From: Bacteroidota bacterium
GTDB taxonomy: Bacteria; Bacteroidota; Bacteroidia; B-17B0; Aurantibacillaceae
NCBI GenBank assembly: GCA_013297775.1
Contig: JAAFIL010000043.1
Span: forward strand, 1-32,262
Length of the DNA stretch: 32,262 nt
Direction of reading: 5' to 3'
In this document: piece by piece, positions 775 to 6,028 of the stretch
Position numbering within the stretch: the stretch's first letter is position 1
How the letters are laid out: each line of letters starts with the position of its first letter
Program-made: the position numbers and the translations under genes
The notes under the pieces: model-generated
Databases searched by the model: none
The model's input: only the letters and a program-made list of their open reading frames with translations
What the model was told of the DNA's origin: nothing

Positions 775-810
775 TAAAAAAACCTCTAAGAATAAACGTA
801 GAGGTTTTTT
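775..810 (-). terminator. Intrinsic terminator of the SiaBC-type operon
   Basis: AACCTCTA (781-788) pairs with TAGAGGTT (799-806) around a 10-nt loop. Read on the minus strand, the stem is followed by a run of T. It begins about 20 nt after the stop codon of the gene at 831-1211 and is the natural end of that operon. The flanking A and T runs would also let it work from the other side. Confidence 0.75.
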
Positions 811-830
811 GTTTAAAACGTAAATACAAA

Positions 831-1211
831 TTATTCGTTTACCATTACCATTTTAAAAGGTACGTTAATAATAGCTTGGTAATCTTCGCCAGCTTCTAAC
901 ATATCCTCATCGTCTTCTTCATAATGCCAATTAATAGTAACGGCACTTCCACTTTTTTGAATGGCTTCTAATTTTTTAAATACATCCAAAATACATTTAG
1001 AGGAGGAGGTATTAAAATATTCCAATTGAATATTAACATCAGTTACTGACTTAGAGGCACTTGAGTACTTATCTAAGGCATCTACTAATGGTTTATAAAA
1101 TTCAATGGAGTTTTCAGGAATTGAACGTCCTTTTATTTCTAATACTCCTTTTACCAAATCAAATTGAATGGTTGGTGTTTTTGGGGTGCCATCTATTGCG
1201 TACTTTTCCAT
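831..1211 (-). CDS. siaC: SiaC-like regulatory phosphoprotein (DUF1987)
   Basis: 126 residues, cytoplasmic, no signal peptide. The protein matches the SiaC/DUF1987 family, which has an anti-sigma-factor-antagonist-like fold and acts as the phospho-switch of the SiaABC system. The segment YFNTSSSK (residues 65-72) carries the expected phospho-acceptor. Thr68 falls at the same number as the phosphorylated threonine reported for Pseudomonas aeruginosa SiaC. It is the last gene of the operon, 36 nt after the SiaB-like gene, with a terminator just downstream. In Pseudomonas, unphosphorylated SiaC activates the diguanylate cyclase SiaD. No cyclase is present here, so the output partner is unknown. 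Family assignment is firm; the wiring is inferred. Confidence 0.85.
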   Translation of the reverse strand: MEKYAIDGTPKTPTIQFDLVKGVLEIKGRSIPENSIEFYKPLVDALDKYSSASKSVTDVNIQLEYFNTSSSKCILDVFKKLEAIQKSGSAVTINWHYEEDDEDMLEAGEDYQAIINVPFKMVMVNE

Positions 1212-1247
1212 GCTTTTTTTATTACTAGTGTAGTGTGTGCTTTATTT

Positions 1248-1829
1248 TTAAACGTATTGTTGAGTAACCTTAATATTTAGTGTAAAGAACGAAACTTTAT
1301 TGTCAATTTCCAAAAAATTATAATCTAATTTTTCACCTGTTTTTCGGGCAATATCAATCATCCCAAGTCCACCTCCACCTTTCATAGACATTTCGCCGTT
1401 GTTCAACACTTTTTTATAATGTTCTTTCAATTCTTCTTTACTTAATGCGTTAACCTCATCGAGGCGGCTTTTAAGCCCATAAATATTTTCGTTAGAAATA
1501 TAATTGCCTGTAAAAATGGTGTAAACGCTTTGTAGTTTTCCAATCATAAAGATAGCCGAACGATTCAAATCGGCATTGCTTTCAGATACATCGTCCATGT
1601 GGTGATACAGATTTTGTAAACACTCTACCAAAACATTGTAAACCTTTTTCTTCATTTTGGGCTCTTCCTGCATGTTGTCCATTTTATTCTCCATAATTTG
1701 AAGAATAGAAGTTAAGAGTTCGGAGGTTATATCTCCTTTAAATGAGAGCAAAATATTATTACGCTCCATTTTGTCATAGATATCAAATACATCCACCATA
1801 TCCTCTCGTCTCGGAGCTAACTGCTGCAT
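1248..1829 (-). CDS. siaB: SiaB-like protein kinase (DUF6272)
   Basis: 193 residues, soluble. The sequence has the marks of a degenerate GHKL ATPase: an N-box-like stretch VLVECLQNLYHH (residues 66-77) and a glycine-rich lid GGGGLGM (151-157) followed by IDIARKTGEKLDY. This is the pattern of SiaB-family kinases, which phosphorylate SiaC on threonine. The start ATG lies 6 nt after the lipoprotein stop codon, so translation is probably coupled. Opposing activity should come from the PP2C domain of the first gene in the operon. Kinase family is well supported; the substrate is inferred from the adjacent SiaC-like gene. Confidence 0.82.
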   Translation of the reverse strand: MQQLAPRREDMVDVFDIYDKMERNNILLSFKGDITSELLTSILQIMENKMDNMQEEPKMKKKVYNVLVECLQNLYHHMDDVSESNADLNRSAIFMIGKLQSVYTIFTGNYISNENIYGLKSRLDEVNALSKEELKEHYKKVLNNGEMSMKGGGGLGMIDIARKTGEKLDYNFLEIDNKVSFFTLNIKVTQQYV

Positions 1830-1835
1830 GAAGGT

Positions 1836-2714
1836 TTATCGTAATTTAAACGCTACCGTTTGACCATTAACGCTAAACGTAGCATCTTCATCGCAAACAT
1901 TTGGTCCGTAATCAACCGTGCGTTCTTTAAAGCCATCGGGTAATAATTTTAAAACACCACTTTGAATAAATTGACAATTAGTATGTTTAATTAGCGGAGT
2001 GTTGGCAGCAACAGTTACAGCAAATCTACGCCCCACACGGTTTGTACCGTTAGAAACTCCCCAAATTGAGGTAATATCGTTAGTGCGGTCGTTATCGCCT
2101 TGGTGCTCGTGGCGTATGCTACGGTCGGTTGAATACGTGATGTACCAGTTGCCATTATCGCATCGGCCATTAATAACCTTAACTTGAAACTCAGAGTAAG
2201 TAGGCGCCACAGTAACAGTTGTAATAACCAAACTATCACATTTATAATTAATACCTACGTTAGAGTTAAGCACTACATTGGTTTTGTAATTATTAAATTT
2301 AACGATGGCTTGCGCACCTGCTACTTTCATGCGTTTCGTAAACCTAACCGTAATCGAACCACTCCGATTTTTAGAGTCGGGCATTGGGTTGCAACTGGCA
2401 TTGTTTAAATTTAAGAGAAACGTTGGAGGATTAGCGAACACCCCTTGCGAATTAGCCGTCGTATCACCACTAATTCTAGTTAATGTATCGCAAGGTGCCA
2501 TCACCTTATTAAAACTAGCACCTGTGCCTTTTGTTTTAATGGCATTGTTATTAACCGTAGGCACAATAGACATAAATTCTTGCTCGCAAATGGCATTGTC
2601 AACTGCCGATTGGGTTTCATTGTCCACCTCTACTTTTTCCTCCTTTTTACAATTTGTAAAACAGTTCGCAATAAGCAAAAGTAAACCAGCTGTTAGTAAT
2701 TTATAATTTTTCAT
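1836..2714 (-). CDS. Hypothetical lipoprotein inside the Sia-type operon
   Basis: About 292 residues from the ATG at 2714. This start gives a clean lipoprotein signal, MKNYKLLTAGLLLLIANC, with a candidate lipidation cysteine at 18 or 22 (the second in FTNCKK). A TTG 54 nt further upstream would place 18 extra residues before the signal and is less likely. The mature part is rich in Asn and Thr, has scattered Cys, and looks like an all-beta exported domain. I recognise no family. It sits 43 nt after the receptor phosphatase and 6 nt before siaB, so it is co-transcribed with a signalling module. A role as ligand-binding or envelope sensor partner of the propeller receptor is plausible but unproven. 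Confidence 0.7.
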   Translation of the reverse strand: MKNYKLLTAGLLLLIANCFTNCKKEEKVEVDNETQSAVDNAICEQEFMSIVPTVNNNAIKTKGTGASFNKVMAPCDTLTRISGDTTANSQGVFANPPTFLLNLNNASCNPMPDSKNRSGSITVRFTKRMKVAGAQAIVKFNNYKTNVVLNSNVGINYKCDSLVITTVTVAPTYSEFQVKVINGRCDNGNWYITYSTDRSIRHEHQGDNDRTNDITSIWGVSNGTNRVGRRFAVTVAANTPLIKHTNCQFIQSGVLKLLPDGFKERTVDYGPNVCDEDATFSVNGQTVAFKLR

Positions 2715-2757
2715 GAAATAGTTTTTTAAACCTTTTAACAAATATAATAATTTGATT

Positions 2758-5700
2758 TTAAATTGCAATACCCACCACTAAAACATCATCTACCTGTTCG
2801 TGATTTCCTCGCCATTGTTCAAAACTTTTATCGAGTAATTGCCGTTGAGCCACCATGTCTTGTTTATGAATTTCTTGTAACAACTCGTGGAAACGCTTCA
2901 CCATGTATTTTTTACCTTTATCGCCTCCAAACTGATCGGCATAACCATCGCTAAACATATAAGCAATCATGGGTTCTTTAGCCGATAACGTGTGGCTGGT
3001 AAATAACCTATCCATATCGAGTTGCGCTCCGCCAACCGGAAATTTATTCCCTTCTATTTTAGTTAATTGCTCGTTTTGATTTATTAAAATTAAAGGTCGG
3101 TTAGCACCTGCCCATTTCACCAATTTTTCTTTATGATTAATGGCAATAATCGAAACATCCATGCCATCGTTAGTTTGAATTTCGTTGTGCCCTTGCCGCA
3201 ACGCCTCTTGAACGCCACGGTGCAAATGATTTAATATTTGTGCTGGATCAAGTGTACCTTTTTCTAATACAATTTGGTGCAGTAAATTATGGCCAATCAT
3301 ACTCATAAACGCACCTGGTACGCCATGCCCCGTGCAATCTACCACCGCAAAAATTTTATAACCCTCCTTTTCGGCAAACCAATAAAAATCGCCACTCACA
3401 ATATCTTTAGGTTTATACAAAATAAACGCATTTTTAAGTTTATCAAAAATATAATCGCGGGCGGGTAAAATGGCTTCTTGAATACGTTTGGCATATTCAA
3501 TACTGCTGGTTATATCTCTATTTTTCTCTTCTAATTCTTTGGTGCGTTCAGCTACTTTCGTTTCCAATAATTTGTTTTCCTTTTTTATGGCCTTGGTGCG
3601 GTATTGCGTAAAAGCATAAATGCCGCTTGCCCCAAATAAGATGAGTAAAATATAGAACCATTTTGTTTTCCAAAAGGGTGGCACAACTACTATCTTTAAT
3701 TCGAGTGGGGTTTCGTTCCATACCCCATCGTTATTAGAGGCTTTAATTTTAAGCGTATAATCGCCGCCAGGTAATTCGGTGTAAGAAATGTACCGCACCG
3801 CCGAAGGTTCAGACCATTCTTCGTCATACCCTTCCAATTTATAGGAATACAAATTTTTGGTAGGATCGGTATAATCTAATGCCGCCACTTCAAATTGAAA
3901 GTAATTTTCGCGCCAGCTTAATTTTAAATATTTTTTATAAGAGATAAGGGTATCGGTCTCCACATCTTTCCCGCCGCGCTTATAACTGGTTAGTTGAATG
4001 GTTGGAATGTGGTAATTGTCTTTTATTTGAGAGGGCGAAAAAATATTATAACCTAACACCCCACCAAATAACATTTTACCTTTTTTAGAAAATGAAAAAG
4101 CGTTTTGATTGTGTTCTCTATTAATAATCCCATCCTTCAAACTATAATTTTTAAATACGATGCGTTTTTCTTTGGCTTTGGGGTCAAATGTTGTGATGCC
4201 TCTGTTAGAACTCATCCAAAACTTGCCAGTACTATCTTTTAAAATAGAATACAAGTAACTGCTCACTAAACCATCCTTTTCATAATAATTAGAAAATTTA
4301 TTTTGGGTATCTAAACAGCTTAATCCAGACTCTGAAGCAAACCAAAAATTATTAGAATTATCTTCAGTAATGCAGTAAACGGTGTTGCTGCTTATTTGGT
4401 TGCTGCCATTTTCGTTTATATACTTTTTAATTAATTTTATTTTATTGTTTTTGAGTGACTCTAAATGATAAACCCCTTGTCGGTTTGTTCCCAACCAAAT
4501 GCTTTTATCTTTGGCTTCATAAATACTAAAGATGGTGCTGGCTTCAAAGCCATTGCCTGGGTAATACCGATCTAACTTTTGTGTTTTTAAATTGTATTTG
4601 AATAAGCCATCTTCAAACGTACCAATGATTAAATTATCGTAGCTATCGCGCGTTATACACATTACCGTTCCGCCCGCTGTTTTATCTAATAGTCGTGTTT
4701 TCGCTTTCGTACGCTTATCTACTTTAAACAAACCCAAACCATACGTTCCAATATAAAACGTGTTGTCGTCGGCATCATAAAACGACAAGGCATAATTATT
4801 TTCTAACACATCCGAATAATCTTTAATAGCACCCGTTTGTTCGTTAATGTAAAGCAATTTTTTTTCGCCACCAATCCAAATATTACCTTCTTTGTCTTGT
4901 TGTGTTAAATATAAATTCTGAAACTCTTCTTGGTGATAACGTGCCTCGTTCGGAAATTTTTGCGTTTGCGAAAAATAAATATTAACGCCTCCTAAAGAGG
5001 TTGCTACCCAAAGATTCTCTTCTTTATCGAGCCACAAATCATTAATTACATTATCGGTCAAATCATATTCGCGCGCACTATTTTCTTGTTTAATAATCAA
5101 TTTTGTTTCTTCGGTTAAGGTGTTATAAACCCCCAAACCACCTTTGGTTCCTGCATAAAGTACATTTTCGGCAATGGCCAAACTATTCACAAACGAGGCA
5201 TTGTTAGCTGGCTCGTTGGTAAATTTTATTACTTTATCTAATTCATAATTTTTGCTATCGGCTTTAATAACGCCGCCTCCGTGGCTGGCAATGTACAAGC
5301 TATTGCCATACACCTTCATATCAGACACACGATTTAAAATATTTATGTCCACATCGCTGAAATAAACATTTTTAAATTCGATGCGGCTTAATTTTTTATT
5401 TTTCAATTCCCATATTCCTTTCCCTTCGGTGCCCACTAAAACTGCACCATTTACAAAGGCAACACATTTAACTTCAACGGCTTCCGGAAATGGAAATGCA
5501 AATGCTTCAACACGTTTACTTTTTACATAAACCCTAAATAAACTGGCAGTAGTGGCTACTAATGCGGTGGAGTCGTTTTCTTTTACAATTCGATTAACCG
5601 AAACCAAATCTTTGGCTTTCGTAAGTGTAATGCGCTCAAAACTGGAGTTATAAGGATTCATGTAACTTAATCCTTCTTTCGTTCCTACTAAAAATAAATC

Positions 5701-5982
5701 GTTGGTCATTTCGCACAAGGCCGTTACATCCGAAGAAAAAAGACTTTTTGTATTTTCGGGATTGCGACGAAATATTTTTACACCATACCCATCGTATTTA
5801 TCTAAGCCATCTTGCGTGCCAAACCACATAAACCCTTTCGAGTCTTGCATAATGCAATTCACCAACGTAGTAGATAAACCATCGTCGCTCGTAATTTGCT
5901 TAAACTTTAGTTTTTGTGCATAACTTATCGAGTATTGAAATATCAATACAACACATAAATATTTTAGAATTTTTTTATTCAA
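2758..5982 (-). CDS. Propeller-domain receptor with cytoplasmic SpoIIE/PP2C phosphatase
   Basis: 1074 residues. A signal peptide (about 1-22, ending YAQ) is followed by a periplasmic two-component-regulator propeller with many W-x-G-T repeats (for example MWFGTQDGLDKYDG near 52), then a Y_Y_Y domain ending near 767. One membrane helix (about 774-793) leads into a coiled coil (KLLETKVAERTKELEEK) and a PP2C/SpoIIE phosphatase. Metal-binding signatures are present: GDFYWF (865), VVDCTGHG (Asp882), SDGYAD (Asp1012) and DD at 1065-1066. There is no histidine kinase or DNA-binding domain. The start is TTG; the only ATGs lie after the signal sequence. As first gene of the siaBC operon it should play the SiaA role, dephosphorylating the SiaC-like protein in response to a periplasmic cue. 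Confidence 0.88.
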   Translation of the reverse strand: MNKKILKYLCVVLIFQYSISYAQKLKFKQITSDDGLSTTLVNCIMQDSKGFMWFGTQDGLDKYDGYGVKIFRRNPENTKSLFSSDVTALCEMTNDLFLVGTKEGLSYMNPYNSSFERITLTKAKDLVSVNRIVKENDSTALVATTASLFRVYVKSKRVEAFAFPFPEAVEVKCVAFVNGAVLVGTEGKGIWELKNKKLSRIEFKNVYFSDVDINILNRVSDMKVYGNSLYIASHGGGVIKADSKNYELDKVIKFTNEPANNASFVNSLAIAENVLYAGTKGGLGVYNTLTEETKLIIKQENSAREYDLTDNVINDLWLDKEENLWVATSLGGVNIYFSQTQKFPNEARYHQEEFQNLYLTQQDKEGNIWIGGEKKLLYINEQTGAIKDYSDVLENNYALSFYDADDNTFYIGTYGLGLFKVDKRTKAKTRLLDKTAGGTVMCITRDSYDNLIIGTFEDGLFKYNLKTQKLDRYYPGNGFEASTIFSIYEAKDKSIWLGTNRQGVYHLESLKNNKIKLIKKYINENGSNQISSNTVYCITEDNSNNFWFASESGLSCLDTQNKFSNYYEKDGLVSSYLYSILKDSTGKFWMSSNRGITTFDPKAKEKRIVFKNYSLKDGIINREHNQNAFSFSKKGKMLFGGVLGYNIFSPSQIKDNYHIPTIQLTSYKRGGKDVETDTLISYKKYLKLSWRENYFQFEVAALDYTDPTKNLYSYKLEGYDEEWSEPSAVRYISYTELPGGDYTLKIKASNNDGVWNETPLELKIVVVPPFWKTKWFYILLILFGASGIYAFTQYRTKAIKKENKLLETKVAERTKELEEKNRDITSSIEYAKRIQEAILPARDYIFDKLKNAFILYKPKDIVSGDFYWFAEKEGYKIFAVVDCTGHGVPGAFMSMIGHNLLHQIVLEKGTLDPAQILNHLHRGVQEALRQGHNEIQTNDGMDVSIIAINHKEKLVKWAGANRPLILINQNEQLTKIEGNKFPVGGAQLDMDRLFTSHTLSAKEPMIAYMFSDGYADQFGGDKGKKYMVKRFHELLQEIHKQDMVAQRQLLDKSFEQWRGNHEQVDDVLVVGIAI

Positions 5983-6020: not shown

Positions 6021-6028
6021 CAAAGCTA
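6021..6028 (-). promoter_or_regulatory. Candidate -7 element for the receptor-phosphatase operon
   Basis: On the minus strand this reads TAGCTTTG, an exact match to the Bacteroidota -7 consensus TAnnTTTG, about 38 nt before the TTG start codon. No clear TTTG at -33 is visible. Confidence 0.4.

Follow-up and report, generated by a model that had tools for sequence, protein, structure and literature searches.

Here we describe a four-gene signalling cassette on the minus strand, at positions 831–5982, of a 32,262-nucleotide stretch of DNA (the window; contig JAAFIL010000043.1 of a Bacteroidota bacterium of the Aurantibacillaceae). In transcription order its genes encode a receptor, a lipoprotein, a SiaB-type kinase and a SiaC-type target protein, with gaps of 43 bp (receptor–lipoprotein), 6 bp (lipoprotein–SiaB) and 36 bp (SiaB–SiaC), confirming the four tightly packed genes of an original prediction made from the sequence alone. 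The features of the locus are as follows.

2758–5982, minus strand: receptor, 1074 amino acids (aa), with a Reg_prop propeller, a Y_Y_Y domain, one membrane helix and a SiaA-like PP2C domain (Pfam/NCBIfam, PDB relatives)
3685–3876, minus strand: Y_Y_Y domain, receptor residues 703–766 (PF07495, 1.2e-19)
3598–3666, minus strand: likely membrane helix, receptor residues ~773–795 (hydropathy scan)
2770–3594, minus strand: coiled segment and PP2C phosphatase domain, receptor residues 797–1071 (NF038263)
2739–2746, minus strand: TATATTTG, promoter-like motif TAnnTTTG inside the 43-bp gap ahead of the lipoprotein gene (sequence; motif in 54/62 relatives)
1836–2714, minus strand: lipoprotein, 292 aa, an N-terminal helix and a beta-rich domain, outside any Pfam family (lipobox Cys22, AlphaFold2)
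1248–1829, minus strand: SiaB-family kinase, 193 aa, with the E69/N73 box and a GGGGLG box at residues 151–156 (NF038262, 6KKO)
831–1211, minus strand: SiaC, 126 aa, STAS-like phosphoprotein, Thr68 codon at 1008–1010 (PF09345, 6KKO_C)
777–810, minus strand: terminator-like hairpin followed by a T run, downstream of SiaC (fold −13 kcal/mol, z −2.56)
6021–6028, minus strand: TAGCTTTG, promoter-like motif 38 bp upstream of the receptor start, not conserved in relatives

The two downstream genes belong to the families that form the core of the Sia switch. SiaC matched PF09345 (1.1e-43) and aligned without gaps to the solved Pseudomonas aeruginosa SiaC (6KKO_C, 3.2e-19), which places Thr68, as predicted, in the NTSS phospho-site; the residue is kept in 58/58 relatives carrying the cassette, and mean column identity is 92%. 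SiaB matched PF19788 (8.6e-41) and the SiaB-family kinase model NF038262 (163.3 bits, cut-off 85), and in a sequence comparison with the solved Pseudomonas SiaB (6KKO_A, 6.7e-14) its E69 aligned with the QN-box glutamate. Both E69 and N73 are kept in 60/60 relatives and the GGGGLG box in 59/60, the remaining sequence being cut. The AlphaFold2 model of SiaB, with a predicted local distance difference test score (pLDDT) of 74.6 that falls below 50 at glycine-loop residues 146–153, matched 6KKO_A at E 8.2e-9 (template modelling score 0.70), followed by SpoIIAB and RsbW at E of about 1e-3. Given the kept residues and the match to 6KKO, a kinase lacking an ATP site, which would have spoken against the original prediction, is not indicated at this level of modelling.

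Pfam and NCBIfam assigned Reg_prop, Y_Y_Y and SpoIIE/PP2C domains to the receptor and detected no histidine kinase, receiver or DNA-binding domain in it. Sequence comparison related its outer half to the solved two-component sensors 4A2L (7.5e-76) and 3V9F, in agreement with the predicted sensor of the hybrid-histidine-kinase kind, and its inner half to the SiaA PP2C phosphatase 6K4E (2e-37), with the SiaA model NF038263 matching residues 797–1071 at 1.2e-59. The PP2C metal-site residues are well kept (D865 and D882 in 54/57 relatives each, D1012 and G1013 in 57/57, D1065 and D1066 in 56/57) and, matched by motif, form the same set as D457, D474, D600, G601 and D653 of SiaA, as listed in PMC7647112. 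None of the three proteins reached the cut-offs of the NCBIfam equivalog models (SiaA 202.5/700, SiaB 91.2/225 and SiaC 95.1/150 bits), so the genes are members of the Sia families and not Pseudomonas orthologues. Together, the matches to Pfam, NCBIfam and solved relatives bear out the SiaABC-like parts, and a working SiaABC-type switch is very probably encoded here, its phosphorylation chemistry carried over by analogy from Pseudomonas.

The gene order recurs well outside the window, in Bacteroidota that are for the most part uncultured. The lipoprotein was found in 33 of 40 genomes of the genus, and at 29 other genus loci SiaB lies beside it in all 29, SiaC in 28 (one contig end) and the PP2C receptor in 27; the two loci without a receptor are one contig end and L058, where lipoprotein, SiaB and SiaC stand directly beside a divergent glycosyltransferase-like gene. 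A scan of named species with the lipoprotein alignment yielded 65 pattern matches and 40 confirmed loci, all labelled metagenome assemblies and partly overlapping the genus loci; having been found via the lipoprotein, they are uninformative on Sia genes without it. SiaB follows the lipoprotein in 40/40 of these named loci and SiaC in 38/40 (two contig ends), and the receptor lies ahead of it in 38/40, being missing from L090 and L100 although about 6.9 kb of upstream sequence is present. By eye, a PKD-type surface protein of ~1210 aa, probably sorted by the type IX secretion system (T9SS), stands before the lipoprotein gene at both of these loci (L090:3120–6785, L100:3193–6819).

At class level, 117 of 295 genomes hold a lipoprotein homologue at E ≤1e-20. 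Forty such loci outside the window's own family, hand-picked for score and family spread, comprise 17 (9 families) with all four genes, 5 with a partial cassette and 18 without SiaB beside the lipoprotein, one of which (L161) has PP2C genes there instead. In three of the 17 a contig end truncates the receptor. This split into 22 loci with linkage and 18 without was made after looking, and lipoprotein scores overlap at its border, L146 standing alone at 8.7e-41 and L149 having the cassette at 3e-37. The recurrence of the gene order is more than chance, and the conservation on which the original prediction was to be checked is upheld.

The output of the switch differs from that in Pseudomonas. 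A GGDEF profile gave no match in the window's own genome and none in 44 genomes chosen for a strong lipoprotein match (the whole cassette was checked in some of them only), with 8 of 14 control genomes positive. The predicted lack of a cyclase therefore holds genome-wide, and the output is not a SiaD. With 7 SiaB, 6 SiaC and 17 SpoIIE-type phosphatases encoded in its genome, the window cassette is one of several Sia modules. The propeller–PP2C receptor is not unique to this locus: a second propeller receptor (1330 aa, PAS and PP2C) lies beside another SiaC in the same genome, followed by two 7TMR-DISM proteins (L169:7081–11652, C1).

Another module of this genome, on one strand (L166:4048–9225, C52), encodes SiaB, SiaC, a 377-aa protein and a 1032-aa ABC exporter (ABC_tran and ABC2_membrane). 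The C-terminus of the 377-aa protein is itself a SiaC domain (PF09345 5e-26, residues 255–369), and over its first 250 aa it resembles the N-terminal part of exporters from 9 genomes (8.9e-11 to 6.8e-7); a profile gave 1.8e-10 and hhalign an E of 5.7e-7. This exporter N-terminus is TerB-like (PF05099 in 9/9). An FHA domain, which would bind phospho-threonine, had been suspected there from the sequence and was rejected: in Pfam all nine gave TerB and none gave FHA, and no credible match came from a profile search of the PDB. The SiaC–exporter-like fusion was seen in two genomes, the window's own (G000) and G030, both with the order SiaB–SiaC–fusion–exporter. SiaB is duplicated in the same C52 (two genes, L167:9132–10240) and in L278.

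The TerB-ABC exporter is also linked to SiaC elsewhere in the class. It lies convergent beside SiaC, directly or one open reading frame away, in 8 of the 22 class-level cassette loci (7 families). Searched for alone, with an alignment seeded from Sia neighbours, the exporter was present in 84 of 149 class genomes. From 103 listed places 80 were fetched; the others were 16 partial matches, 6 exporters already known to stand beside the cassette and the SiaC-fusion operon of the own genome. Three previously known positives (L262, L268, L286) were kept, and in 10 of the 80 one flank is shorter than 3 kb. SiaC lies within ~3.5 kb of the exporter at 28 of these 80 loci (17 families), 20 of them also with SiaB, as against SiaC or SiaB in 0/40 control stretches of like length, taken at hand-chosen offsets from a subset of the same genomes (Fisher p 1.6e-6). 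The exporter is co-directional with an upstream SiaC at 12 of the 28 loci and convergent at 16. PP2C, one to three copies of SiaB, SiaC and the exporter share one strand at L278, L281, L286 and L287, and the L281 receptor is again a propeller–PP2C protein; three consecutive SiaB genes lie there between this receptor and SiaC–exporter (L281:7250–8952). Some exporter-adjacent SiaCs are orthologues of the window SiaC (64–75% identical, Cys73 kept) and some have diverged.

Lipoproteins recur in this setting as well. In six co-directional loci (L259, L264, L265, L267, L268, L277) SiaC and exporter are separated by a lipoprotein of a second family, of ~283 aa. This family has a relative beside the own exporter operon (L166:2678–3589; 1e-27 to 1e-32) and is unrelated in sequence to the lipoprotein of the window. 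At a threshold of 1e-5 three loci (L230, L284, L285) have a member of the window lipoprotein family next to SiaC and exporter; at 1e-8 only L230 does.

These observations allow us to propose a mechanism. In Pseudomonas, SiaB phosphorylates Thr68 of SiaC, SiaA removes the phosphate (PMC7278518), and unphosphorylated SiaC binds and activates SiaD (PMC7278518, PMC8457831); PMC8457831 also carries the suggestion of the SiaC–SiaD structure authors that DUF1987/SiaC proteins commonly modulate adjacent proteins. We suggest that a signal is sensed in the periplasm by the propeller/Y_Y_Y half of the receptor, which would set the cytoplasmic PP2C through the one membrane helix, that SiaB would phosphorylate SiaC on Thr68 and the receptor PP2C would remove the phosphate, and that free, unphosphorylated SiaC would bind its target. 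As no diguanylate cyclase was found in the genomes, we regard the TerB-ABC exporter as the most likely target, which SiaC may contact through the N-terminal TerB region. The 'undefined output' of the original prediction is, to this extent, narrowed by linkage and fusion to a candidate. The whole chain including the exporter, a SiaABC-type switch with an input and an output different from those in Pseudomonas, is a reading that we credit and doubt in equal measure. Slightly more tentative is the broader proposal that in GGDEF-less Bacteroidia SiaABC was re-plumbed, away from a second-messenger enzyme, to gate a TerB-ABC exporter directly by phospho-threonine, with at least two unrelated families of outer-membrane lipoproteins recruited repeatedly to these modules.

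Several results weigh against an exporter output. The exporter stands beside the cassette in 0/40 loci of the window's own family, and the closest exporter copy of the own genome is on another contig, with SiaB/SiaC not within the fetched flanks (L233). Within reach of 52 of the 80 exporter loci there is no SiaC; 16 of the 28 linked loci are convergent, not co-directional, and these counts ignore shared ancestry. The SiaC of the fusion is a diverged paralogue, and the TerB-like region has no demonstrated phospho-partner binding, an FHA domain not being detected by Pfam. The same switch may act on another target, such as a transcription or sigma factor, an enzyme, or a T9SS or envelope part, with the exporter a mere frequent neighbour. 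This we regard as quite possible, on balance somewhat doubtful. The resemblance of SiaB/SiaC to anti-sigma kinase/antagonist pairs speaks for it, as does the missing adjacency of the exporter in the window's family, and a SiaC so nearly frozen in sequence would fit a partner that is highly conserved, or several partners. A gene that looks ECF (extracytoplasmic function) sigma-like by its sequence also lies two genes downstream in 11/64 loci; we judged this linkage incidental because two other genes intervene. Set against another target are the fusion of SiaC to an exporter-like N-terminus and the one-strand PP2C–SiaB–SiaC–exporter loci, and the neighbour clusters contain no sigma factor gene that is repeatedly found immediately next to the cassette.

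The embedded lipoprotein of the original prediction is confirmed. Its start is most likely ATG 2714 and not TTG 2768, as first called, and the lipobox Cys22 is kept in 62/62 relatives. It matched nothing in Pfam or NCBIfam. Its AlphaFold2 model (pLDDT 84.4) combines an N-terminal helix with a beta-rich domain, for which Foldseek found no PDB entry at E 0.001 or better (best 0.11); VIA-align gave the EspP barrel at Z 10.8 (root-mean-square deviation 4.8, 192 aligned) and OSBP-related lipid-binding domains and porins at Z ≤8.2. A function drawn from these fold matches was rejected as too weak, and the absent match is not proof of a new fold. The lipoprotein is the least conserved part of the cassette, with a mean column identity of 45% as against 79% for SiaB and 92% for SiaC. 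A surface-export signal (LES), C-X-K-(D/E)2-X after the lipidated cysteine, has been defined in Capnocytophaga (PMC5080379); C-K-K-E-E-K of the window lipoprotein fits this form, with the full LES in 6/62 relatives and Lys +3 in 61/62.

TAnnTTTG is the Bacteroidota −7 promoter motif, which PMC7366714 reports as known from B. fragilis and verified in F. johnsoniae. Within 130 bp before the lipoprotein gene it occurs in 36/40 named loci (5.1 expected) and 18/22 class-level loci (1.6 expected), that is, in 54/62 pooled (~6.7 expected), the expectations coming from mononucleotide shuffles and the gene starts from the profile. Before SiaB it occurs in 5/40 named loci (2.5 expected) but in 20/20 class-level loci (2.3 expected), and before SiaC in 0/38 and 2/20, respectively; a 110-bp limit gave 51/62, 25/60 and 2/58 for the three genes. 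Before the receptor it is not conserved, being within 200 bp in 9/45 relatives. The lipoprotein therefore probably has its own promoter, from which SiaB–SiaC may also be read, judging by the motif. As the lipoprotein and, at class level, SiaB have their own conserved promoter motif, the cassette is not simply the single operon that was first supposed.

Presumably made from this promoter, the lipoprotein is likely to act in the periplasm or at the outer membrane, where it would modulate the signal or form part of the response. Alternatively, it could be a regulated output or a passenger merely flanked by receptor, SiaB and SiaC, which we consider rather unlikely. Its own motif, that of SiaB in every class-level locus and the 18 of 40 class-level homologues without SiaB beside them favour such independence. 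SiaB follows it directly in all 40 named loci, and it stays with SiaB–SiaC where the receptor is gone (L058, L090, L100, L136); this retention speaks against a pure receptor accessory as well as against a passenger.

Standalone homologues of the lipoprotein are many across the class (L148, L150–L165) and form an uncharacterised family outside any Pfam model. Inspected by eye, the neighbours of 17 of the 18 (L163 was not resolved) include no recurrent partner except one pair of genes, of 611–613 aa and 347 aa, that follows the homologue in similar form at L150 and L154. A lipoprotein of the window family at L161:5003–10899 has as neighbours a divergent SiaB and a tandem pair of PP2C proteins, one of which matched 7TMR weakly.

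Two further readings carry little weight. A cyclic di-GMP system with an unrecognised cyclase, suggested by homology to SiaABCD and by nothing else, is highly improbable and nearly refuted by a GGDEF profile that found nothing in 44 genomes while its controls worked. Less probable still is a degenerate or chance cluster without function, for which one could cite D865 and D882, each non-matching or gapped in 3/57 PP2C rows, and frame breaks in single metagenome-assembled genomes (one lipoprotein with a stop, G039), set against active-site and phospho-site residues that are invariant and an order kept over 13 families.

Around the cassette, an aldolase-like gene and an AccD-like gene were seen downstream of SiaC in 35/64 and 32/64 loci examined (named loci L061–L100), and a divergent glycosyltransferase-like gene upstream in 23/64. 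The names GT4 glycosyltransferase, tryptophan 2,3-dioxygenase, fructose-bisphosphate aldolase, AccD and ECF sigma factor are provisional readings of the sequences.

SiaD is the only SiaC output met in the literature consulted, and the exporter, if the proposal is true, would be a concrete second one, with the SiaC–exporter-like fusion pointing at the contact surface. What SiaC does without cyclic di-GMP becomes a directly testable question. A threonine-phosphate switch would also gain a lipoprotein and a large periplasmic sensor, and signalling of this type seems to have been little described in the phylum; searches of open-access literature found no paper dealing with SiaABC in Bacteroidota or with a SiaC–exporter link, which is not proof of absence.

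Among known systems, the cassette is most like P. aeruginosa SiaABCD (PMC7278518, PMC7647112, PMC8457831), with which it shares the PP2C, SiaB, a SiaC with Thr68 in register, the SiaB–SiaC fold and the active-site residues. It differs in its receptor, a propeller/Y_Y_Y sensor with one helix, whereas the Pseudomonas receptor has two membrane spans and a HAMP domain, and in its inserted lipoprotein, its exporter linkage and the lack of any SiaD/GGDEF found. The periplasmic sensor architecture is common to Reg_prop/Y_Y_Y hybrid two-component systems (4A2L, 3V9F), but the cytoplasmic part here is a PP2C in place of the kinase, receiver and DNA-binding domains. A PP2C, a GHKL kinase and a STAS-like target also make up the SpoIIE–SpoIIAB–SpoIIAA and RsbU–RsbW–RsbV partner switches; the cassette is closer in sequence to SiaB/SiaC, and its neighbour clusters have no sigma factor directly beside it. 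The FHA-ABC exporter Rv1747 and the kinase PknF reportedly offer a precedent for an ABC exporter next to a kinase gene with proposed threonine-phosphate control; here the exporter N-terminus is TerB-like, no FHA having been detected, and the kinase is of the SiaB type. The parts and core logic of the cassette are known; its novelty lies in the kind of sensor, the lipoprotein embedded among the Sia genes, the missing GGDEF cyclase and the link to an exporter.

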